Assembly (NCBI GenBank): GCA_021736985.1
Contig: JAIPEW010000001.1
Span: 1 to 64,000, forward strand
DNA from: Clostridiales bacterium
GTDB taxonomy: Bacteria; Bacillota; Desulfotomaculia; Desulfotomaculales; VENG01
Length of the DNA stretch: 64,000 bases
Reading direction: 5' to 3'
Made by a program: the position numbers and the translations under genes. Positions 2,581 through 28,316 of this stretch are shown piece by piece. The notes below the pieces were generated by a model, which was not told where the DNA came from, ran no database searches, and saw only the letters and a program-made list of their open reading frames with translations. How positions within the stretch are numbered: the stretch's first letter is position 1; each line of letters starts with the position of its first letter.

Positions 2581-3141
2581 AACTGCCAATCCATTGGCTC
2601 AGATGTAGGAGTGAAGGAGTTTGCCGTGCTATCTAATGGCAATAAGATACTCAACCCCAAGCATCTACAAAAGGCCGAGCGCAGATTCAAAACCCTGCAG
2701 AAAACCCTGTCGCGTAAGCAGAAAGGTTCCCGGAACCGGGCTAAGGTCCGGGTAAAGTTGGCCCGCCAACATGAAAAGGTACGCAATCAGCGCAAAGACT
2801 TCCACCATAAGGTATCCAGCCAATTAGTTTGGCAATACGGTATGATTGTAGTAGAAGACTTGCATATTAAAAACCTGGTCAAAAACCACAACCTGGCGAA
2901 GTGTATCTCTGACGTTGGGTGGGGTGAATTCATCTCAATGTTATCCTACAAGGCTGAAAGTGCCGGTAGGGTATTGAAAAAAGTTCCTCCCCACGGGACA
3001 ACTCAGGAGTGCAGCCAGTGTGGTAATACTGTTGCTAAAGACCTTTCGGTTAGAACACATAAATGCCCGCATTGTGGTTTGGTTATGTACCGCGACTATA
3101 ATGCGGCAATCAACATTTTGCATAGATACAAAGCTTCTTAG
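2581..3141 (+). pseudogene. TnpB, N-terminally truncated, RuvC core intact
   Basis: The frame opens after a TAG at 2578-2580 and immediately enters RuvC-I (GSDVGVKEFAVLSNG). RuvC-II (MIVVEDLHIKNL), the zinc finger (CSQCG, CPHCG) and RuvC-III (RDYNAAINIL) follow. All three acidic residues of the nuclease site are therefore kept, but the roughly 180-residue N-terminal recognition half is gone. A GTG at 2611 could start a 176-residue product, but that would begin after the RuvC-I aspartate. Probably a decaying IS605-type accessory nuclease. Confidence 0.85.
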
Positions 3142-18255: not shown

Positions 18256-19539
18256 ATGCAGTATAAAACAAATTACAAAATTGAGCAAATAATTGAATCC
18301 ACAGTAATTGTAGGAACAGACATTGCCAAAAATCAACACGTAGCAAGAGCTCTTGATTTCCGCGGAATTGAGCTCGGTAGACCTTTAACGTTTAAAAACA
18401 GTCAAAGTGGATTTATAAAACTCTACAACTGGCTTGAAAAACTAATAAGCAAACACGACAAAAAAGGTGTAATTTTTGGTGTAGAGCCCACCGGCCACTA
18501 CTGGCTGTCCTTAGCACAATTTTTACGTGAAAACGGAATAAAAATAGTACTTGTGAATCCCATGCACGTTAAGAAAAGCAAAGAACTTGACGATAACTCA
18601 CCTACAAAAAACGATGCTAAAGACGCCCGGGTCATAGCACAGCTGGTCAAAGACGGGCGGTACTCCGAACCCCATATTCCTACCGGGATCTATGCAGAGC
18701 TACGGGCAGGAATGAATCTTAGAGACCGCTTAACAGAAGACCTCAGGCGTGTACAAGGGCGTATATATAACTGGCTGGACCGTTTCTTTCCCGAATTTCT
18801 TACCGTCTTTAAAAAGTGGGAAGGTAAAGCAGCTATGCTTATATTAAAGTCCTTTCCACTACCACAGGAAATTGTGGATAAAGGCGTAGACGGAATTATG
18901 GAATGTTGGAAACAAGGAATGAAACGTAGTGCCGGTAAGAAAAAAGCAATAGAACTCGTAGATGCAGCTTTGACCAGCATTGGACTTACAGAAGGGGTAA
19001 TCATGGGCCGACAGGAACTTAATATGCTTTTAGCCCAGTATGAATCAATACAGCACGAGATAGAGCAATTAATGCAGCAGATTGAAAACATGTTGGAGAA
19101 GGTGCCAGGTGCTCAAGAAATGATGACCATAACAGGTGTAGGATTGGCAACGGTGGCCGGGTTTATCGCTGAAGTAGGAGACTTAAATAATTACTCGCAC
19201 CCGCGGCAGATACAAAAGTTAGCAGGCCTGAACCTGAAAGAAAACAGTTCAGGAGAATATAAAGGCCAAACCAGCATCACCAAGAGAGGACGCCCGCGCT
19301 TAAGAGCCTTACTTTTTAAATGTATCATGCCGCTGGTAGCTAAAAACCAAGAATTTAAGGCCCTGCACAACTACTACACCACAAGAACTGAAAACCCCCT
19401 TAAGAAGATGCAATCGATGATTGCGCTATGCTGCAAATTAATTCGAGTTATGTTTGCCATAGGCAGAAAAAAGACGCCGTATGACGGTGAAGAACTGGTA
19501 AAGAACAGTTCAGTGCTTTCATTACAGGAAGCAGCTTAA
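18256..19539 (+). CDS. IS110-family transposase (DEDD recombinase)
   Basis: 427 residues, complete. The RuvC-like DEDD domain shows Asp22 (VGTDIAKNQ), Glu77 (GVEPTG) and Asp120/Asp123 (KNDAKDAR). A coiled-coil middle is followed by the Tnp20 domain with a helix-hairpin-helix (TITGVGLATVAGF) and the serine-bearing segment NSSGEYKGQTS. The protein uses a bridge RNA encoded in the element's noncoding end to pair target and donor DNA. No stops or shifts, so the element may be active. Confidence 0.95.
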   Translation: MQYKTNYKIEQIIESTVIVGTDIAKNQHVARALDFRGIELGRPLTFKNSQSGFIKLYNWLEKLISKHDKKGVIFGVEPTGHYWLSLAQFLRENGIKIVLVNPMHVKKSKELDDNSPTKNDAKDARVIAQLVKDGRYSEPHIPTGIYAELRAGMNLRDRLTEDLRRVQGRIYNWLDRFFPEFLTVFKKWEGKAAMLILKSFPLPQEIVDKGVDGIMECWKQGMKRSAGKKKAIELVDAALTSIGLTEGVIMGRQELNMLLAQYESIQHEIEQLMQQIENMLEKVPGAQEMMTITGVGLATVAGFIAEVGDLNNYSHPRQIQKLAGLNLKENSSGEYKGQTSITKRGRPRLRALLFKCIMPLVAKNQEFKALHNYYTTRTENPLKKMQSMIALCCKLIRVMFAIGRKKTPYDGEELVKNSSVLSLQEAA

Positions 19540-19961: not shown

Positions 19962-20375
19962 ATGAGCGATGATAAAAAAACATTAGAAGAACTTACTTTT
20001 TTGAATGACATTTATTATCACAGTGAGCATACTTGGGCAAGAATTGAAGGCGAGCAAGTAAGGGTAGGGATTACAGATTTTGCCCAGGACCAATTGGGAA
20101 GCATAATATTTATTGAAATTCCCGAAGCTGGAGATGCGTTCAGCGAAGGGGACGAGTTCGGTCAGGCCGAGTCAGCAAAGACGGTATCTTCACTGCACAT
20201 GCCTGTCAGCGGTGAGGTGGTTTCTGTAAATCCTGAAGTAGAAGATACTCCTGAAACCGTTAATAATGATCCTTATGGAGACGGGTGGATAATCATTGTT
20301 AAACCAAAAGATATGGATGAAGTTAACCAGTTATTAACCAGGGACGGGTATATTAATATGTTAAAGGAATCTTAA
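19962..20375 (+). CDS. lipoyl-carrier protein, GcvH-like
   Basis: A 137-residue H-protein homologue. The lipoylation hairpin QAESAKTVSSLHMPVSGEV places the lipoyl lysine at Lys73, with ESAKT in place of the usual ESVKA. The N-terminus is about 15 residues longer than typical GcvH, and HTW and GITDFAQDQLG are conserved. No gcvP or gcvT is near; the neighbours are a glutaredoxin fusion, an arylsulfotransferase homologue, and lpd/lipB/lipA. It is therefore more likely the swinging arm of another pathway than of glycine cleavage. GAGGGAG precedes the ATG. Confidence 0.9.
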   Translation: MSDDKKTLEELTFLNDIYYHSEHTWARIEGEQVRVGITDFAQDQLGSIIFIEIPEAGDAFSEGDEFGQAESAKTVSSLHMPVSGEVVSVNPEVEDTPETVNNDPYGDGWIIIVKPKDMDEVNQLLTRDGYINMLKES

Positions 20376-20408
20376 AGTAGATAAAGAGATAGAAAGGAGA
20401 TGGAATAT

Positions 20409-21257
20409 ATGAGTAATACGCTTTATACTGCTACCGGGTGTACACGCTGCAAAATAGTAAAAAATTTCATGGAAGAGCGCGATATTCCCTATGTTGAGAA
20501 AGATATGAAGGCAGAAGGTAAAGAAGAATTTCAACAGTTTTATAAGGCTAATCGTAAGTATATATACCGCGGCGAAAATGGGATTGAATTCCCGGTTTTT
20601 ACTGATGGTGACGTAATATATCAGGGTATCGGTCCGGCTGTTGCTTACCTGCTTTCCAGGGGTAAGCTGGATAAATTTTTTAGCGTAGGAACTTTACATA
20701 AGGAGTGGGTAGACGGTATCCATGTTTTTCGCGGTAATCCCGAATATGCCGGAGAGTTTATCGAGGTTCTGCGTTATTTAAAAAATAATAACTTAAAACT
20801 GCAGGTAGATACAAAAGGGAAAAACAGCCATATTCTTCAGCAAATTCTAGATGAAGGATTAGGAGATGCAGTTATAATGGATGTGCTTGGCCCGGGAGAA
20901 TTGTACAGTGAGATTCTGGGAGAAGATATTGACATTAATGAAGTGGAAAAGAGCATAAAAACAGCAGCTAATTTTCCTGAATTTTACTTTCAAACAACTG
21001 TTGTACCTGTAGTACGCCAGGATGGTGATACTCCGGAAATTAGTTACCTGGCTCCGGAGGAAGTTGCTGAAGCAGCAAAATTAATTGAAGCAGTTACAGG
21101 AAGCAAAAAAAATCCTTATCTTATTAAGCTTTTTAAAACAAAAGAAGCTAAGGATAAGCGTTTAAAGGCAGTAGAGCCTTTATCTGCTGCAGAATTACTA
21201 CCCTACCGGAGTAAGGCAAGAACTTATCAGGTATTTACAGAAGTTGAAAAAGTTTAA
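20409..21257 (+). CDS. glutaredoxin fused to a cysteine-less radical-SAM-like barrel
   Basis: The ATG at 20409 follows AAAGGAG by 9 nt; an ATG at 20400 overlaps that site. Residues 1-90 are a glutaredoxin with redox pair Cys11/Cys14 (TGCTRCK) and a late EFPVFTDGDVIYQG strand. Residues 95-245 resemble the latter part of anaerobic-RNR-activase (NrdG2-type) radical SAM barrels: DGIHVFRGNPE, LKLQVDTKGKN, DAVIMDVLGPGELY, FQTTVVPVV. The CxxxCxxC loop that should start the barrel is absent, as if the glutaredoxin replaced it. It probably acts on the lipoyl/thiol chemistry of its neighbours; the reaction is unknown. Confidence 0.75.
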   Translation: MSNTLYTATGCTRCKIVKNFMEERDIPYVEKDMKAEGKEEFQQFYKANRKYIYRGENGIEFPVFTDGDVIYQGIGPAVAYLLSRGKLDKFFSVGTLHKEWVDGIHVFRGNPEYAGEFIEVLRYLKNNNLKLQVDTKGKNSHILQQILDEGLGDAVIMDVLGPGELYSEILGEDIDINEVEKSIKTAANFPEFYFQTTVVPVVRQDGDTPEISYLAPEEVAEAAKLIEAVTGSKKNPYLIKLFKTKEAKDKRLKAVEPLSAAELLPYRSKARTYQVFTEVEKV

Positions 21258-21314: not shown

Positions 21315-22760
21315 ATGACTTATCCGAGTGTTTTTCCAACAGGAACTACTGTTTATAACCCTGAGAAATGTTGGAGCGGGTACACTATTTACCAGGCAAG
21401 GGAATTAGGCGCTTTGCTGGTTGATATGAATGGAAAAGAAGTTAAACTATGGAAGGGTCTGCATGGCTTTCCAAATAAACTTCTGCCAGGTGGCTACGTG
21501 ATGGGGCATACCGGTGAGAGAAATAATGCCTACGGTATGCAGGACCAGATTGATCTGGTCCAGGTGGACTGGGACGGAAATATAGTCTGGAAGTTTAACC
21601 AGTATGAGTTTATTGAAGACCCGGGAGAAGAACCGCAGTGGATGGCCAGACAGCACCATGATTACCAAAGAGAAGGAAATCCCGTAGGTTATTATACACC
21701 GGGCATGGAACCTGAAGTTGACGGTGGAAATACCCTGATTCTGGGCCACAAAAATGTTAGAAATACGGATATTTCCGATAAGAATCTTCTTGATGATGTA
21801 ATCATTGAAGTGGACTGGGAAGGTAATATTTTATGGGAATGGGCCTGCAACGAGCATTTTCATGAATTGGGTTTTGATGAAACAGCGAAAAATATTTTAG
21901 CTAGAGATCCAAATATGCGCCAGGCAGGAGAAGGCATGGGAGATTGGATGCATATTAATTCTATGTCAAAGCTGGGTCCGAATAAATGGTACGATGCTGG
22001 AGATGAACGTTTTCACCCGGAAAATATTATCTGGGATGCTCGAGAAACAAATATAAATGCAATAATAGATAAAAAGACCGGAAAAATTGTTTGGAAGTTA
22101 GGTCCCCGTTATGATACCAGTGAAGAGCTCAAAAACCTGGGTTGGATTATTGGGCAGCATCATACTCATATGGTTCCCAGGGGGCTTCCCGGTGAAGGAA
22201 ACATCTTAACATTTGACAATGGTGGATGGGCTGGATATGGCTCGCCTAACCCGGGCTCTCCAACAGGAAGAATGAATGCAGTTAGAGATTATTCCAGGGT
22301 TCTGGAGATTGACCCGACTACTTTTAAAATAGTATGGCAGTATACACCAGTCGAGGCTGGCTTGGTCCACCCCGTTGATTCCAACCGCTTTTACAGTCCT
22401 TTTATAAGTGGAGCTCAAAGATTACCAAATGGTAACACGTTAATTACTGAAGGTTCTGGCGGGCGCATAATTGAAGTTACTTCGGATTACGAGGTGGTCT
22501 GGGAGTATATAAGTCCTTACTGGGGGAAGTTTTTAAATATGAATATGGTTTACAGGGCTTACCGCGTACCTTATGATTGGGTCCCACAGTTAGAGAAACC
22601 AGGTGAAATTCCTATAGAAAAAACAGATGTAACGACATTCCGTATGCCTGGTGCTGCACCGTCTGGCTGTGAAGATGAAACAGAAGTGCCGGGAGTAGTG
22701 CCTTATCAGGGGGATAATGCATTATGTGTTGCTGCTGAGGAAGAACTAGATGAAGAATAA
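21315..22760 (+). CDS. arylsulfotransferase (ASST)-like beta-propeller protein
   Basis: 481 residues after a GGGGGAGG ribosome-binding site. Repeated blade motifs (DWDGNIVWKF, DWEGNILWEW, DKKTGKIVWKLG, DPTTFKIVWQYT, YEVVWEYISP) and the histidine-rich GQHHTHMVPRG followed by NILTFDNGG are those of the ASST family, which moves sulfuryl groups between phenols through a histidine intermediate. Characterised ASSTs are periplasmic or lipoproteins; this one has no signal peptide and is presumably cytoplasmic. An acidic tail ends the protein. It is third in the gcvH operon. A lyase or thiol-acceptor activity is possible. Confidence 0.8.
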   Translation: MTYPSVFPTGTTVYNPEKCWSGYTIYQARELGALLVDMNGKEVKLWKGLHGFPNKLLPGGYVMGHTGERNNAYGMQDQIDLVQVDWDGNIVWKFNQYEFIEDPGEEPQWMARQHHDYQREGNPVGYYTPGMEPEVDGGNTLILGHKNVRNTDISDKNLLDDVIIEVDWEGNILWEWACNEHFHELGFDETAKNILARDPNMRQAGEGMGDWMHINSMSKLGPNKWYDAGDERFHPENIIWDARETNINAIIDKKTGKIVWKLGPRYDTSEELKNLGWIIGQHHTHMVPRGLPGEGNILTFDNGGWAGYGSPNPGSPTGRMNAVRDYSRVLEIDPTTFKIVWQYTPVEAGLVHPVDSNRFYSPFISGAQRLPNGNTLITEGSGGRIIEVTSDYEVVWEYISPYWGKFLNMNMVYRAYRVPYDWVPQLEKPGEIPIEKTDVTTFRMPGAAPSGCEDETEVPGVVPYQGDNALCVAAEEELDEE

Positions 22761-22764
22761 AAAA

Positions 22765-22782
22765 GGGGGCTTATAAGCCCCC
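22765..22782 (+). terminator. intercistronic hairpin
   Basis: A perfect 18-nt palindrome, GGGGGCTTATAAGCCCCC, lies just after the ASST stop. The downstream tract is only partly T-rich (TACCCTTTTATTT), so partial termination or transcript processing before the transporter gene is likely. Confidence 0.6.
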
Positions 22783-22812
22783 TACCCTTTTATTTAAAAA
22801 GGAGGCCATCTT

Positions 22813-24231
22813 ATGAATCAACAACCTGAAATCAATACTATTATATCAAAAAGTATAAATATAAAAAAATTAATTATGTGGGCAATTACAATTATAGTGC
22901 CTCTGATTATTTTAGCAATACCAACAACTGAAAGTTTTACACCGGATATTAGGCTATTTTTTGCTTTAACTTTAAGCGTAATACTTATGTGGGCTTTTGA
23001 GTTATTGCCGTTTCTTATTCCTTCTTTAATATTACCTGTTATGTATATATTATTTAATATAGCACCTGCGGCAAAGGTTTTTTTGCCATGGTCTCATTAT
23101 ATTCCCTGGATGATAGTTGGTGGAATGATTCTGACCAAAATATTTGAAGATAATGGCTTGCTAAAAAGAATTTCCTACTGGTGTATTATAAAAGCAGGAG
23201 GGTCTTACCGGGCTCTAATATACGGCTTAATGATGTCAGGTATTCTAATGGCTATAATTCTTCCTGATATTGCCTCCAGGGTGATTTTGTATTCAGCATT
23301 AGCTTATGGTATTTGTAAAGCATTAGAATTAGAACCCAAATCAAAATCCAGTGCGGGTATTATGATGGCTGGAGTTCTTGCTGCTCTTACTCCGGCATAT
23401 ATGTTTTCTATTTCAGCGGCACAAACATTGATAGTTAATAATATCGCTGCACAGTATGATATCAATGTTACATTTATGGGGTATCTTTTAAAACATGGTT
23501 TACCTACACTGGTATGGTGTTTTATTACTGCAGGTCTTATAGATTTTCTCTTTAAACCAGGTAAAGATGACAATACAAATTACAAAGAATATTTCCAGGA
23601 AGAACGTAAGAAAATGGGGAAAATGACAGCTAAAGAAATAAAGTTAAGTATTATCTCTTTAGCAATTTGTATAGGAGTTTTAACTGAAAGTATTCATGGA
23701 ATAAGTGTTGGATGGGTTTTTCTGATAGCAGCTTTTATATGTTATTTGCCGGGGATTAATCTTGGTAAAGAAGACGATCTTAATGTTAATTATCCTCTGG
23801 TAATATTTGTTGCAGCATGTATGACAATAGGTGTAGTTTCCAATATTATTGGAGCAGGTAAATTTGTAGCAACTATTCTTTATCCATTTATAAGTGGAGG
23901 ACAATTGCATGTTATTTCAGCCGGCTGGTTGCTGGCTGTTATATTAAATTTCGTTATGACTCCTTTAGCAGCAGTAAGCAGTGTTACAGGTCCTCTTGTA
24001 GATATTGCTGTAAATTCCGGGGTTGCTGTTAAGCCTGTTTTATATGCATGGAATCAGGGGTTAGAACAAATTATTTTACCATATGAATACGCGCTGGTAT
24101 TGTTTGCTTTTGGATATGGTTATATTTCATTAAAAGATTTAATAAAAACCTTTGGTTTTAGAATGCTGTTAAACATTGTATTTTTATGGGTTATTTGTGT
24201 TCCTTTCTGGAAATTGATAGGTTTATTTTAA
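22813..24231 (+). CDS. SLC13/DASS-type anion transporter
   Basis: 472 residues with about 11-12 hydrophobic helices, a long cytoplasmic loop (residues 250-285) and two similar halves. The helix-break ILPDIASR in the first half and MTPLAAVSSVTGP in the second resemble the substrate/Na+ loops of the divalent-anion:Na+ symporter superfamily. Substrates there are dicarboxylates, sulfate or organic sulfur anions. Placement directly behind the ASST-like gene suggests uptake of the pathway's substrate. AAAGGAGG precedes the ATG. Confidence 0.75.
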   Translation: MNQQPEINTIISKSINIKKLIMWAITIIVPLIILAIPTTESFTPDIRLFFALTLSVILMWAFELLPFLIPSLILPVMYILFNIAPAAKVFLPWSHYIPWMIVGGMILTKIFEDNGLLKRISYWCIIKAGGSYRALIYGLMMSGILMAIILPDIASRVILYSALAYGICKALELEPKSKSSAGIMMAGVLAALTPAYMFSISAAQTLIVNNIAAQYDINVTFMGYLLKHGLPTLVWCFITAGLIDFLFKPGKDDNTNYKEYFQEERKKMGKMTAKEIKLSIISLAICIGVLTESIHGISVGWVFLIAAFICYLPGINLGKEDDLNVNYPLVIFVAACMTIGVVSNIIGAGKFVATILYPFISGGQLHVISAGWLLAVILNFVMTPLAAVSSVTGPLVDIAVNSGVAVKPVLYAWNQGLEQIILPYEYALVLFAFGYGYISLKDLIKTFGFRMLLNIVFLWVICVPFWKLIGLF

Positions 24232-24366: not shown

Positions 24367-25074
24367 TTAATATCCAAATCCTATTTCGCGAAGTTTTGAT
24401 CTGTCTTTTACTATTAAGTTATTATTATAATAATTTATAATGTTATCTTTTCTTAATTTCTTTAGCGTATTAGTTATTGATACCCTGTGAGCCCCTACAA
24501 GAAGTGCTAGTTCCTGGTGAGAAAGTTTGTATTCAAAGTTTGTATCATCCTGTTTATCATATGAAGTAAAACAATATAATATCCGGCATAATTTTTCCAG
24601 TGTATTACGAGAAGTGAAGTCATCCAATTGAGCCGCAAGAACTCTGGACTTTAATGCTAGTGAATTTATAATGAAATAGGATATTTGATAATCTGTTTTA
24701 ATTAATTCTTTTATAACTTCTTTAGGAAAAACATAAACTTCTAACCTGGTCAATGCTTTAGCGTAGTATAAAATAGGTTGATTATGAAAAAGTGCTTCTT
24801 CTCCTAAAATACAACCTGGACCTACTACGACAACACATTTTTGTGAACCGTCTTTTCCAATTTGAATATATTGTACAATTCCTTTTTGAATATAAAATAG
24901 TGTATTTAATTTGTCTCCAACTTCTGTTAAATTAGTGGATTTTGTATAAGACTTTTTTTGAGATAGGTGTAGATATTCTTCCCATGTATTATCAGATGAT
25001 TCTTTATTGGTAAGTAAATTAAAATTAATCCAGGGAGAAGTAGACAAGAATTCAATTTCATTGTTTATCTTCAT
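24367..25074 (-). CDS. Crp/Fnr-family transcription regulator
   Basis: 235 residues. The N-terminal cyclic-nucleotide-binding fold is at 40-150 (IQKGIVQYIQIGKDGSQKCV, GPGCILGEEALF). A long dimer helix follows, then a winged HTH at about 180-215 (LSHQELALLVGAHRVSITNT). No cysteine cluster as in Fnr is seen, so the effector is probably a small molecule or redox partner. It is divergent from lpd, sharing a 244-bp gap that holds the palindrome TTGTAGT-N4-ACTACAG. It is the obvious candidate to control both lpd-lipB-lipA and the gcvH operon. AAAAGGTG precedes the ATG. Confidence 0.9.
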   Translation of the reverse strand: MKINNEIEFLSTSPWINFNLLTNKESSDNTWEEYLHLSQKKSYTKSTNLTEVGDKLNTLFYIQKGIVQYIQIGKDGSQKCVVVVGPGCILGEEALFHNQPILYYAKALTRLEVYVFPKEVIKELIKTDYQISYFIINSLALKSRVLAAQLDDFTSRNTLEKLCRILYCFTSYDKQDDTNFEYKLSHQELALLVGAHRVSITNTLKKLRKDNIINYYNNNLIVKDRSKLREIGFGY

Positions 25075-25318: not shown

Positions 25319-26689
25319 TTGGACTTTGATATAGCAGTTATTGGGGGAGGGCCCGGAGGTTATGTTGCAGCAATCCGGGCGGCACAGCTTGGAGCCAAAG
25401 TAGCAGTTATTGAAAAAGATGAACTAGGTGGAACATGCCTGAACAGGGGATGTATCCCTACCAAATCGCTTTTGGCTTCTGCTGAGAAACTTGATGACGT
25501 TAAAAAAGCTGCTGAATTCGGTATAGAAGTTGAAGAGCCGAAAATTAATATGCGAAAGGTTCAGGAGCGCAAAAACGACGTAGTAAAAAAACTTGTTGGT
25601 GGAATAAATCAATTATTTAAAAAGAATAAAGTTGAGTATATAAAAGGAACAGCAAAGGTATCTTCACCAAATGAGATAGTTTGTTCAGGAGAAGAAACAA
25701 AAACAATAACTTGCAGCAATATAATCATAGCTGCAGGTTCAAAACCTGCTTTAATCAAATCACTGGGGTATAATGGAAAGACTGTGATTACCAGTGAAGA
25801 GGCCTTGCAGTTGGAAAAAATACCTGAAAGCCTGTTGGTTATCGGTGCAGGAGTAATAGGATGTGAGTTTGCCAGTTTTTATAACAGCATGGGCACAAAA
25901 GTTACCATGATTGAAGCAATGCCCAATGTACTTCCAATGCTGGATAAGGAATTTTCTCGCCGTATGCAGACTTTATTAAAGAAAAAAATAGATTTAAAAA
26001 CAAAAACAATGATAAAAAATATAAGTGAAACAGGTGAGGGAATAGAAGCTGAACTGGATAGCGGTGAAAAAATTAAAGCTGAAAAAGGACTTATTTCAAT
26101 AGGGAGAAGCTTAAATACTTCCGGGCTTGGATTGGAAGAAGCGGGAATAAAAATAGAAGAAAACGGTACTATCCTTGTAAATGATAGTATGCAGACTAAT
26201 GTTGAAGGAATCTATGCCGTAGGCGATATAACAGGTAAAATGCAGCTTGCCCATGTTGCTTCTATGCAGGGAATTATTGCTGCTGAGAACATCATGGGAA
26301 AAGAGAAGAAGATGAATTATAATGCTGTTCCCAGCTGTATTTTTACATCACCTGAAATAGGCTCAGTAGGAATTACAACAGAGGAAGCAAAAGAAAAGGG
26401 TGTCCCGGTAAAAACAGGGAAATTCAATTTTATGGCCAACGGTAAGGCACTTAGCATGGGAGAAGGAGAAGGTGTAGTAAAAATTATTTCTCACAGGGAA
26501 AATGATACTGTTCTGGGAGTTCATATCATGGGCCCGCATGCTTCCGACTTAATAGCAGAAGCAGCACTTGCCGTGAATAAAAGCTTAACTGTAGAAGATG
26601 TAATCAATACTATACATGCTCACCCAACACTTGCCGAGTCAGTCATGGAAGCTGCTGAGGCAGTACACGGCATGTGTATTCACGGGTAA
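25319..26689 (+). CDS. lpd: dihydrolipoyl dehydrogenase
   Basis: Flavoprotein that reoxidises dihydrolipoyl groups with NAD+. The FAD site is GGGPGGY (residues 9-15), the redox disulfide Cys40/Cys45 in GGTCLNRGCIPTK, the NAD site VIGAGVIGCEFA, the second FAD contact AVGDITG, and the catalytic His-Glu HAHPTLAES near 436. 456 residues is normal length. The TTG start follows AAGGGGG. It is first gene of lpd-lipB-lipA. With no E1/E2 or gcvP nearby, its partner is probably the GcvH-like protein. Confidence 0.95.
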   Translation: MDFDIAVIGGGPGGYVAAIRAAQLGAKVAVIEKDELGGTCLNRGCIPTKSLLASAEKLDDVKKAAEFGIEVEEPKINMRKVQERKNDVVKKLVGGINQLFKKNKVEYIKGTAKVSSPNEIVCSGEETKTITCSNIIIAAGSKPALIKSLGYNGKTVITSEEALQLEKIPESLLVIGAGVIGCEFASFYNSMGTKVTMIEAMPNVLPMLDKEFSRRMQTLLKKKIDLKTKTMIKNISETGEGIEAELDSGEKIKAEKGLISIGRSLNTSGLGLEEAGIKIEENGTILVNDSMQTNVEGIYAVGDITGKMQLAHVASMQGIIAAENIMGKEKKMNYNAVPSCIFTSPEIGSVGITTEEAKEKGVPVKTGKFNFMANGKALSMGEGEGVVKIISHRENDTVLGVHIMGPHASDLIAEAALAVNKSLTVEDVINTIHAHPTLAESVMEAAEAVHGMCIHG

Positions 26690-26761
26690 CTATGTAAATG
26701 CAAGGCTTTTCTATTGTTTATACTGTATATCAATGCCTTATTACATTAAGAGGTGAGATAT

Positions 26762-27451
26762 GTGCCTAAGCTGTTAGTTTCAGTACAGGGTGAAACGGAT
26801 TATGATAAAGCTTTAAAAGTGCAGGAAAAATTATTATATTTGCGGCAGCAAAATAAAGTAGAAGATATTATGCTTATCCTTCAGCATCCACCTACATTGA
26901 CCATGGGTAAAAATGCTAAAGATTGTAATGTTATTATTCCCGAAGAAGAATTAAAAAAGCAGGGTGGAAATATCTACAAAACCAGCCGGGGTGGGGATGT
27001 AACGTATCACGGTCCCGGACAAATAGTTGGCTATCCTATTATAGACTTAAAATATAATGGTATAAGTGTACGGGAGTATATATATAAAATCGAAGAAACT
27101 TTTATACAGTTATTAAACTATGAATATAAAATAGCAGCTGTTAAGGGAAAAGCATACCGCGGTGTATGGATAGATAATGAAAAGATAACTGCTATCGGAT
27201 GTGCAGTAAAACGGTGGGTTACAATGCATGGCTTTGCTTTCAATATAAATACCAACTTAGAACACTACAATTGGATTATCCCCTGTGGGATTACAGGTAA
27301 GGGTATAACTTCTTTACAAAAGATATTGGGACAACCGCAGGATATCGTGCAAGTTAATAAACAGGTAATAAAATATTTTTGTAAGATTTTAAATCTTGAA
27401 CCTGAAATTATTAATGAACAGAAATTACACGAGGTATTGGAGAGAAATTAA
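26762..27451 (+). CDS. lipB: octanoyl-[carrier protein]:protein octanoyltransferase
   Basis: Moves the octanoyl chain from acyl carrier protein to the target lysine, the first step of de novo lipoylation. The motifs [12 protein letters not shown] and [11 protein letters not shown] (nucleophile Cys and the nearby Lys of LipB) are intact. GTG 26762 has AGAGGTGAGA just upstream; the longer frame from 26753 would start within that site. Ends 1 nt before the lipA ATG. Confidence 0.95.
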
Positions 27452-27452
27452 C

Positions 27453-28316
27453 ATGCATAAAAGAAAACCCGACTGGCTAAAGGTGAAATTGCAAGGAACA
27501 GAAAAATTATACCAGGTTAAAAAAATGTTAAACAGGCTTTCCCTAAATACCGTATGTGAAGAAGCTAATTGTCCAAATATAGTAGAATGTTTTGCTAAAA
27601 AAACGGCTACTTTTATGATTTTAGGGAAGATATGTACTCGAAATTGTACTTACTGTAATGTTACCAGGGGAACTCCTCAAGATGTTGACCCGGGGGAACC
27701 ATTTCACGTGGCAGAGGCAGTAAAAGAACTTGGCCTAAAACACGTTGTAATAACTTCTGTAACCAGGGATGATCTTCCTGACGGTGGTGCCAGCCATTTT
27801 GCCAGAGTTATAGAAAAAATAAGGGATATTAATGATAATACTATAATAGAAGTTTTAATTCCTGATTTTCAGGGTGATTATGAAGCATTATCTATGGTAA
27901 TAAATGCTAATCCACATATAATTAATCATAACATTGAAACAATTTCTAGATTATATCCTGTTGTTCGGGCTAAGGCAGATTATTTTCGTTCCCTGGAGCT
28001 TTTAAAAAAGGTAAAACAAGCAAAAAACAGCATATATACAAAATCAGGAATGATGCTGGGACTGGGAGAAAAGGAACAAGAAGTAGTGGATGCTCTGAAA
28101 GACTTGAGAAAAGTTGACTGTGAACTATTGACAATAGGACAATATTTAGCACCATCAAGTAAACATCATCCTGTAATTGAATATATATATCCTGAAACAT
28201 TTGACAAGTATAAAGAGCTGGGTTATGAAATGGGTTTTAAATATGTTGCCTCGGCGCCCCTTGTAAGAAGTTCTTATAATGCCGAAGAAGTTTCGCAAAT
28301 GCTTATAAAGAATTAA
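27453..28316 (+). CDS. lipA: lipoyl synthase
   Basis: Radical SAM enzyme that inserts two sulfurs into the octanoyl chain. The auxiliary cluster cysteines are C35, C40 and C46 ([12 protein letters not shown]), the SAM cluster cysteines C61, C65 and C68 (CTRNCTYC), and the C-terminal RSSYNA serine ligand is present. 287 residues from ATG 27453. It completes a self-sufficient lipoylation module with lipB, controlled by the same promoter as lpd. Confidence 0.97.

Follow-up and report, generated by a model that had tools for sequence, protein, structure and literature searches.

A protein of 282 amino acids, encoded at 20409..21257 on the forward strand of the window (the stretch of 64,000 nucleotides analysed here), raises the question of what a radical-SAM barrel can do without its iron-sulfur cluster and with a glutaredoxin at its front. 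We call it GrxSAM, for its glutaredoxin head and its cluster-less barrel of the NrdG2-like type. Its sequence, its predicted structure and its gene neighbours suggest that GrxSAM, a conserved protein of sulfite-reducing anaerobes, probably provides the electrons for a conversion of aryl sulfates to sulfite that serves respiration. The open-access literature yielded no report of this combination of genes.

Results

A predicted glutaredoxin at the place of the cluster loop

The mechanical call of the open reading frame is 20400-21257; the ATG at 20409 is the better start, since a spaced AAAGGAG precedes it and most homologues begin there. Counted from this ATG, the protein has cysteines at positions 11 and 14 and no others, exactly the pair that the initial annotation had assigned to a glutaredoxin preceding the barrel. 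Twenty-two full-length relatives (54-86% identity) have the same architecture; GCxRCK is kept in all 22, both cysteines of the CxxC are invariant, and no further cysteine is conserved among these homologues. Judged from the alignment, this architecture is thus far from chance, and the reading frame and the fusion are confirmed at the level of sequence and modelling.

The glutaredoxin-like domain takes up 20409..20669 (forward strand), with the CxxC codons at 20439-20441 and 20448-20450. Pfam and NCBIfam scans match it to glutaredoxin families with E=1e-3 to 1e-5, the Pfam glutaredoxin score of 19.4 lying under the cut-off of 22.9. F64-P65 (numbering from 20400) is invariant at the cis-Pro position, and the head of the AlphaFold2 model matches Spx, NrdH and Grx in Foldseek. 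A search of solved structures with the GrxSAM family profile returned glutaredoxin-like heads and noise only. By its active site, a CxxC in a thioredoxin fold with cis-Pro, and by its fold, GrxSAM is a predicted glutaredoxin in a new architecture.

The partial barrel (20700..21254, forward strand) comprises NrdG2 strands 2-6. This C-terminal half matches the NCBIfam NrdG2 model TIGR02495 with E=7.6e-14, below the family cut-off, over model positions 60-181 of 193; the part of the model missing in GrxSAM is therefore the N-terminal cluster loop. When the profile of the 22 relatives was compared by hhalign with nine intact, CxxxCxxC-bearing NrdG2 proteins, the probability was 99.6% (E=1e-24), and the alignment begins only at about residue 101, past the cluster loop. 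In the AlphaFold2 model (pLDDT 93.8), the barrel has the PFL-activating enzyme, NifB, lipoyl synthase (LIAS) and biotin synthase (BioB) as its top Foldseek matches, and it is a partial TIM barrel with the strand order of radical-SAM enzymes. The initial annotation had held that the C-terminal part keeps the NrdG2 fold and had proposed structure prediction and Foldseek against radical SAM enzymes as the check; profile, hhalign and AlphaFold2/Foldseek agree on that fold. It had also noted the loss of CxxxCxxC. Indeed, this 4Fe-4S motif is missing from GrxSAM and its 22 homologues, and the SAM-binding GGEP has become GGNP or RGNP. A cluster bound by other cysteines, which the annotation had itself weighed against its idea, is ruled out because none besides C11 and C14 is conserved. 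From the profile, hhalign and modelling results, the glutaredoxin is placed where a radical-SAM barrel has its first strand and cluster loop, and GrxSAM, as read from its sequence, is not a radical-SAM enzyme by the defining cluster.

Such a barrel could still bind S-adenosylmethionine or a related ligand, as a sensor or a non-radical enzyme switched by the Grx head; G112, T138, G140 and N142 around the old SAM cleft are invariant, beyond the need of a bare scaffold. However, the barrel lacks the cluster to which SAM is anchored, GGEP is altered, and no alternative set of conserved ligands was seen; we regard this explanation as very improbable.

No anaerobic ribonucleotide reductase gene was recognised beside GrxSAM. 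At another locus, an open reading frame that adjoins an intact NrdG2 (L042:31-1308) reads like an intein that interrupts an anaerobic ribonucleotide reductase shortly before its end. Within the window, a fragment at 2611-3141 is similar to TnpB-type transposon proteins in their C-terminal region (CxxC...CxxC, DYNAAINI).

The cassette and its neighbourhood across genomes

The window holds the full set of cassette genes, all on the forward strand except the regulator: a GcvH-like lipoyl carrier (19962..20375), whose lipoyl lysine K73 (codon 20178-20180) lies in an invariant ESxK; GrxSAM; a PAPS-independent aryl sulfotransferase of the 54-kDa type (ASST, 21315..22760); a DASS/SLC13-type anion symporter, the putative substrate importer (22813..24231); a Crp/FNR-family regulator that recurs in the loci (24367..25074, reverse strand); a dihydrolipoamide dehydrogenase-like flavoprotein (Dld, 25319..26689), assigned from its sequence and its recurrence; and, by sequence reading, a LipB-like octanoyltransferase (26753..27451) and a LipA-like lipoyl synthase, a radical-SAM protein with its cluster motif intact (27444..28316). 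The gaps in the run from GcvH to the symporter are 33 to 57 bases, Dld and LipB lie 63 bases apart, and the genes for LipB and LipA overlap.

Across the 28 loci with a full-length GrxSAM that were compared, the most constant neighbour is the aryl sulfotransferase. The initial annotation missed it, and with it the likely sulfite-releasing role. The 54-kDa ASST stands near GrxSAM in 24 of these loci; L006 has only an ASST of the 70-kDa type nearby, L003 and L054 have theirs elsewhere in the genome, on a different contig, and L011, which has none near GrxSAM, is a short contig. GcvH-like genes lie close by in 20 loci, lipoamide dehydrogenase in 16 and LipB/LipA in 6; the eight loci with no GcvH-like gene nearby count against the lipoyl chain proposed below.

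A phylum panel of 398 genomes contains 11 GrxSAM carriers, including one (G312) with a broken gene. ASST occurs in 10/10 intact carriers vs 24/398 genomes overall (hypergeometric P=8e-14, the kinship of the genomes being ignored), and G312 has none. The carriers of GrxSAM span seven families.

Several features of these loci may be added. Directly upstream of the cassette lies an IS110-type transposase gene (18256-19539), and the cassette in L015 also has a transposase from this sequence cluster nearby. A perfect palindrome with an 8-bp stem and T runs on both strands, a possible bidirectional terminator, lies between ASST and the symporter (22764-22783). The same genome has a second cassette (L017:8388-12968, G000:C1) with a symporter, a GrxSAM that is 86% identical, ASST and Crp/FNR, and without GcvH, Dld and LipA/LipB. 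Two cassettes are present in Desulforamulus aeronauticus DSM 10349. Elsewhere, the lipoyl carrier gene of a cassette is separated from Dld by a short open reading frame of GMQ repeats (L014:11643-12158). In G312, the first two thirds of GrxSAM are fused to a transporter reading frame (L041:1495-2361).

The aryl sulfotransferase and its redox partners

The predicted structure of the neighbouring ASST is a propeller; among solved structures, the PAPS-independent sulfotransferase Cpz4 matches it best. The catalytic residues were assigned by motif comparison through the 70-kDa type and the AssT numbering (His252, His356, Asn358, Arg374 and His436); the His/Asn/Arg set is invariant in 45 ASSTs, save for undetermined residues in one sequence. 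Propeller fold and AssT catalytic set are thus found together. No signal peptide was recognised in the neighbouring ASST. A tail cysteine (Cys471, codon 22725-22727) is present in 45/45 ASSTs, one of them misaligned and read by eye, and it lies in a C-terminal tail that is predicted to be disordered (pLDDT <50); further cysteines at 19, 144 and 178 are partly conserved. The tail cysteine is not specific to ASSTs paired with GrxSAM, as those without GrxSAM have it too, and the ASSTs with and without GrxSAM do not form two clean clades, with 5 changes on the tree.

What PAPS-independent aryl sulfotransferases (ASTs) do in the cell, and which acceptors they naturally use, is described as poorly understood (PMC13426309, 2026). 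Known ASTs were assayed with phenols, alcohols and amines as acceptors; a thiol acceptor was not found in the AST literature examined.

Fourteen genomes of the phylum panel have ASST without GrxSAM. In one locus (L102:9606-11423), a thioredoxin domain is fused to the C-terminal end of ASST immediately after the tail cysteine, and a flavoprotein reductase is encoded upstream; in L100 and L101, Trx and a TrxR-like protein adjoin ASST. L103:5645-12515 is a run in which ASST is accompanied by an NMT1-like binding protein, a Cys/Met PLP enzyme, a sulfite-reductase-like protein, TusA and thioredoxin, and which also encodes ThiF and JAB proteins; by its gene content, it is an apparent sulfur-assimilation operon. 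Five genomes of 6-7 Mb have ASST with an NMT1-type ABC importer, and in L007, Trx, TrxR and GrxSAM stand at the place of the lipoyl genes. Since ASSTs in other genomes come with Trx, TrxR or a Trx fusion, the need common to many of these enzymes looks like thiol reduction and not the barrel.

These pairings with plain thioredoxins also suit the idea that the C-terminal half of GrxSAM is a decaying, functionless pseudo-domain and only the Grx head matters. We find this hardly credible, the least probable of the explanations weighed here, as the barrel is kept at 54-86% identity over 22 proteins, has invariant residues up to its C-terminus and is predicted with high confidence.

A lipoyl carrier without classical lipoyl enzymes in the window's genome

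The GcvH-like carrier scores 139.7 against TIGR00527, above the cut-off of 115.9, and the lipoyl lysine in ESxK is present in all 19 cassette GcvH-like proteins examined. The genome of the window, which is 100% complete, lacks glycine decarboxylase (gcvP, GDC-P) and a 2-oxoacid dehydrogenase E2, and its single GcvH is the one beside GrxSAM. A glycine-cleavage role for this protein is ruled out there by the missing decarboxylase, and since E2 and any other GcvH are also absent, the lipoyl chain appears dedicated to the GrxSAM cassette. The other 19 GrxSAM carriers searched have glycine decarboxylase; the absence test therefore speaks for the window's genome only.

A lipoyl or glycyl-type partner had been suggested for the barrel. 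The lipoyl half of this suggestion gains support, because the carrier is near in 20 of 28 loci and has no classical role in the window's genome; nothing points to the glycyl-radical half, with no such gene recognised beside the cassette.

The carrier also brings another sulfur substrate into consideration. GcvH-like proteins of the LbpA kind take part in sulfur oxidation (PMC6067878), and the cassette may likewise move sulfur on a lipoyl group, or act on an alkyl sulfate, a sulfonate or an S-sulfo compound, ASST being a relative with a different donor; the importers near the loci do differ (DASS, MFS, TRAP and NMT1-type ABC). We hold this to be improbable, in view of an ASST that keeps all AssT catalytic residues and has a PAPS-independent aryl sulfotransferase as its closest fold, and of a window whose open reading frame list and cassette surroundings gave no recognisable Hdr-like genes.

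Link to sulfite reduction

DsrA is present in 11/11 GrxSAM carriers of the phylum panel vs 55/398 genomes overall (P=1e-10, uncorrected for relatedness). The order panel has DsrA in 46 of its 57 genomes, so that a test at this level is uninformative, the phylum panel was used instead, and part of the association is ancestry. A second set of 11 genomes has DsrA in ten. One carrier genome, G449, shows no dsrA, which counts against the reading given below. In about ten carriers, DsrA is present and AprA is not over the cut-off, a count in which G445 (AprA split in two frames) and G057 (AprA cut by the contig end) are scored as AprA-positive. Such bacteria could reduce sulfite without being able to produce it from sulfate.

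This link bears on a more modest role for GrxSAM, that of a maintenance factor which holds the cysteines of ASST in the reduced state, or else serves as an activator or regulator of ASST, and is not oxidised at each turnover, ASST itself transferring sulfo groups between phenols. In Gram-negatives, the gene of AssT comes together with that of a periplasmic thiol oxidoreductase (DsbL/DsbI or DsbA), which makes the disulfide of AssT (PMC13426309), and the partly conserved cysteines at 19, 144 and 178 of ASST could be the object of such care. However, a housekeeping thioredoxin would be enough for this, and a maintenance role would explain neither the dedicated chain from NADH to the lipoyl group, LipA/LipB included, nor the link to DsrA, nor the operon of ASST with a sulfite reductase. 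Thus, we consider a maintenance factor unlikely, ranking it first among the alternatives.

Discussion

We propose that the cassette is a thiol-driven aryl sulfate reductase, in which GrxSAM is the dithiol that releases sulfite and the dedicated redox partner of a cytosolic ASST, and we give this reading a probability of about 0.6. It is built on architecture, conservation, gene neighbours, catalytic residues, the absence of other lipoyl enzymes from the window's genome and the co-occurrence with DsrA; from these we infer the substrate, every catalytic step, the direction of electron flow and the role of the barrel.

In the proposed process, the sulfo group of an imported aryl (or similar) sulfate would pass to the catalytic histidine of ASST, and the phenol would leave. 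The sulfo group would then move from the histidine to a thiol, in the simplest case the tail Cys471 of ASST or a cysteine of Grx. Attack by the Grx CxxC would free sulfite and leave a disulfide, which the dihydrolipoyl arm of the GcvH-like protein would re-reduce; lipoamide dehydrogenase would in turn re-reduce the lipoyl group with NADH, LipB and LipA having built it. The sulfite would feed DsrAB without ATP-dependent sulfate activation, the net reaction being ArOSO3- + NADH + H+ -> ArOH + HSO3- + NAD+. The cluster-less barrel would most likely serve to dock ASST, the lipoyl carrier or both, which is the weakest step of the proposal. The sulfite-release chemistry is supported by two precedents: in APS reductase, an enzyme thiosulfonate is resolved by a partner with Trx fold (PMC6827007), and the reduction of S-sulfocysteine by Grx1 and NrdH yields sulfite (PMC3528435).

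The odds are about even that the cassette amounts to a previously undescribed respiratory route, in which NADH would drive the reductive desulfation of aryl sulfates by way of lipoate and glutaredoxin, DsrAB would receive the sulfite, and a cluster-less barrel would be reused as docking module. If this is true, bacteria with DsrAB but no APS reductase could respire organic sulfate esters, and aryl sulfotransferases would gain a natural acceptor. The gene context yields a concrete proposal, with a protein thiol as the AST acceptor and sulfite as the product, and also a candidate sulfite source for these bacteria. GrxSAM would also be a clear case of a radical-SAM barrel without cluster, rebuilt around a glutaredoxin, and the cassette adds a lipoyl carrier in a genome without any classical lipoyl enzyme.

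GrxSAM shares barrel strands 2-6 and their motifs with the NrdG2-type activases (TIGR02495), but has a glutaredoxin instead of the first strand and cluster loop, and no CxxxCxxC. With glutaredoxin, NrdH and Spx-like proteins it has the CxxC, the fold and the cis-Pro position in common; unlike them, its head is joined to a radical-SAM remnant, and its predicted partners are the lipoyl carrier and ASST, not glutathione. The ASST has the propeller fold and the catalytic His/Asn/Arg of the PAPS-independent aryl sulfotransferases EcAssT, DhAST and Cpz4, and differs from them in its size of about 54 kDa, its invariant tail cysteine and its redox partner genes.

As a pathway, the proposal follows the logic of APS/PAPS reductase with Trx/Grx, in which a cysteine thiosulfonate is turned into sulfite via a Trx-fold protein, the redox domain being fused in plant APR (PMC6827007). 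Here the donor would instead be an aryl sulfate activated on the histidine of a propeller enzyme, and the electrons would come via lipoate. Pfam and NCBIfam scans gave no match to the sulfonucleotide reductase family; the pathway would thus resemble sulfonucleotide reduction without belonging to that family, by analogy of the proposed mechanism only. A parallel for the lipoyl part is LbpA/sHdr, where a GcvH-like lipoyl protein with dedicated lipoate assembly serves sulfur metabolism (PMC6067878), as it would in the GrxSAM cassette. The carrier of the cassette is, however, close to true GcvH, above the TIGR00527 cut-off, and in contrast to the sulfur oxidation of LbpA/sHdr, the direction proposed here is reductive.
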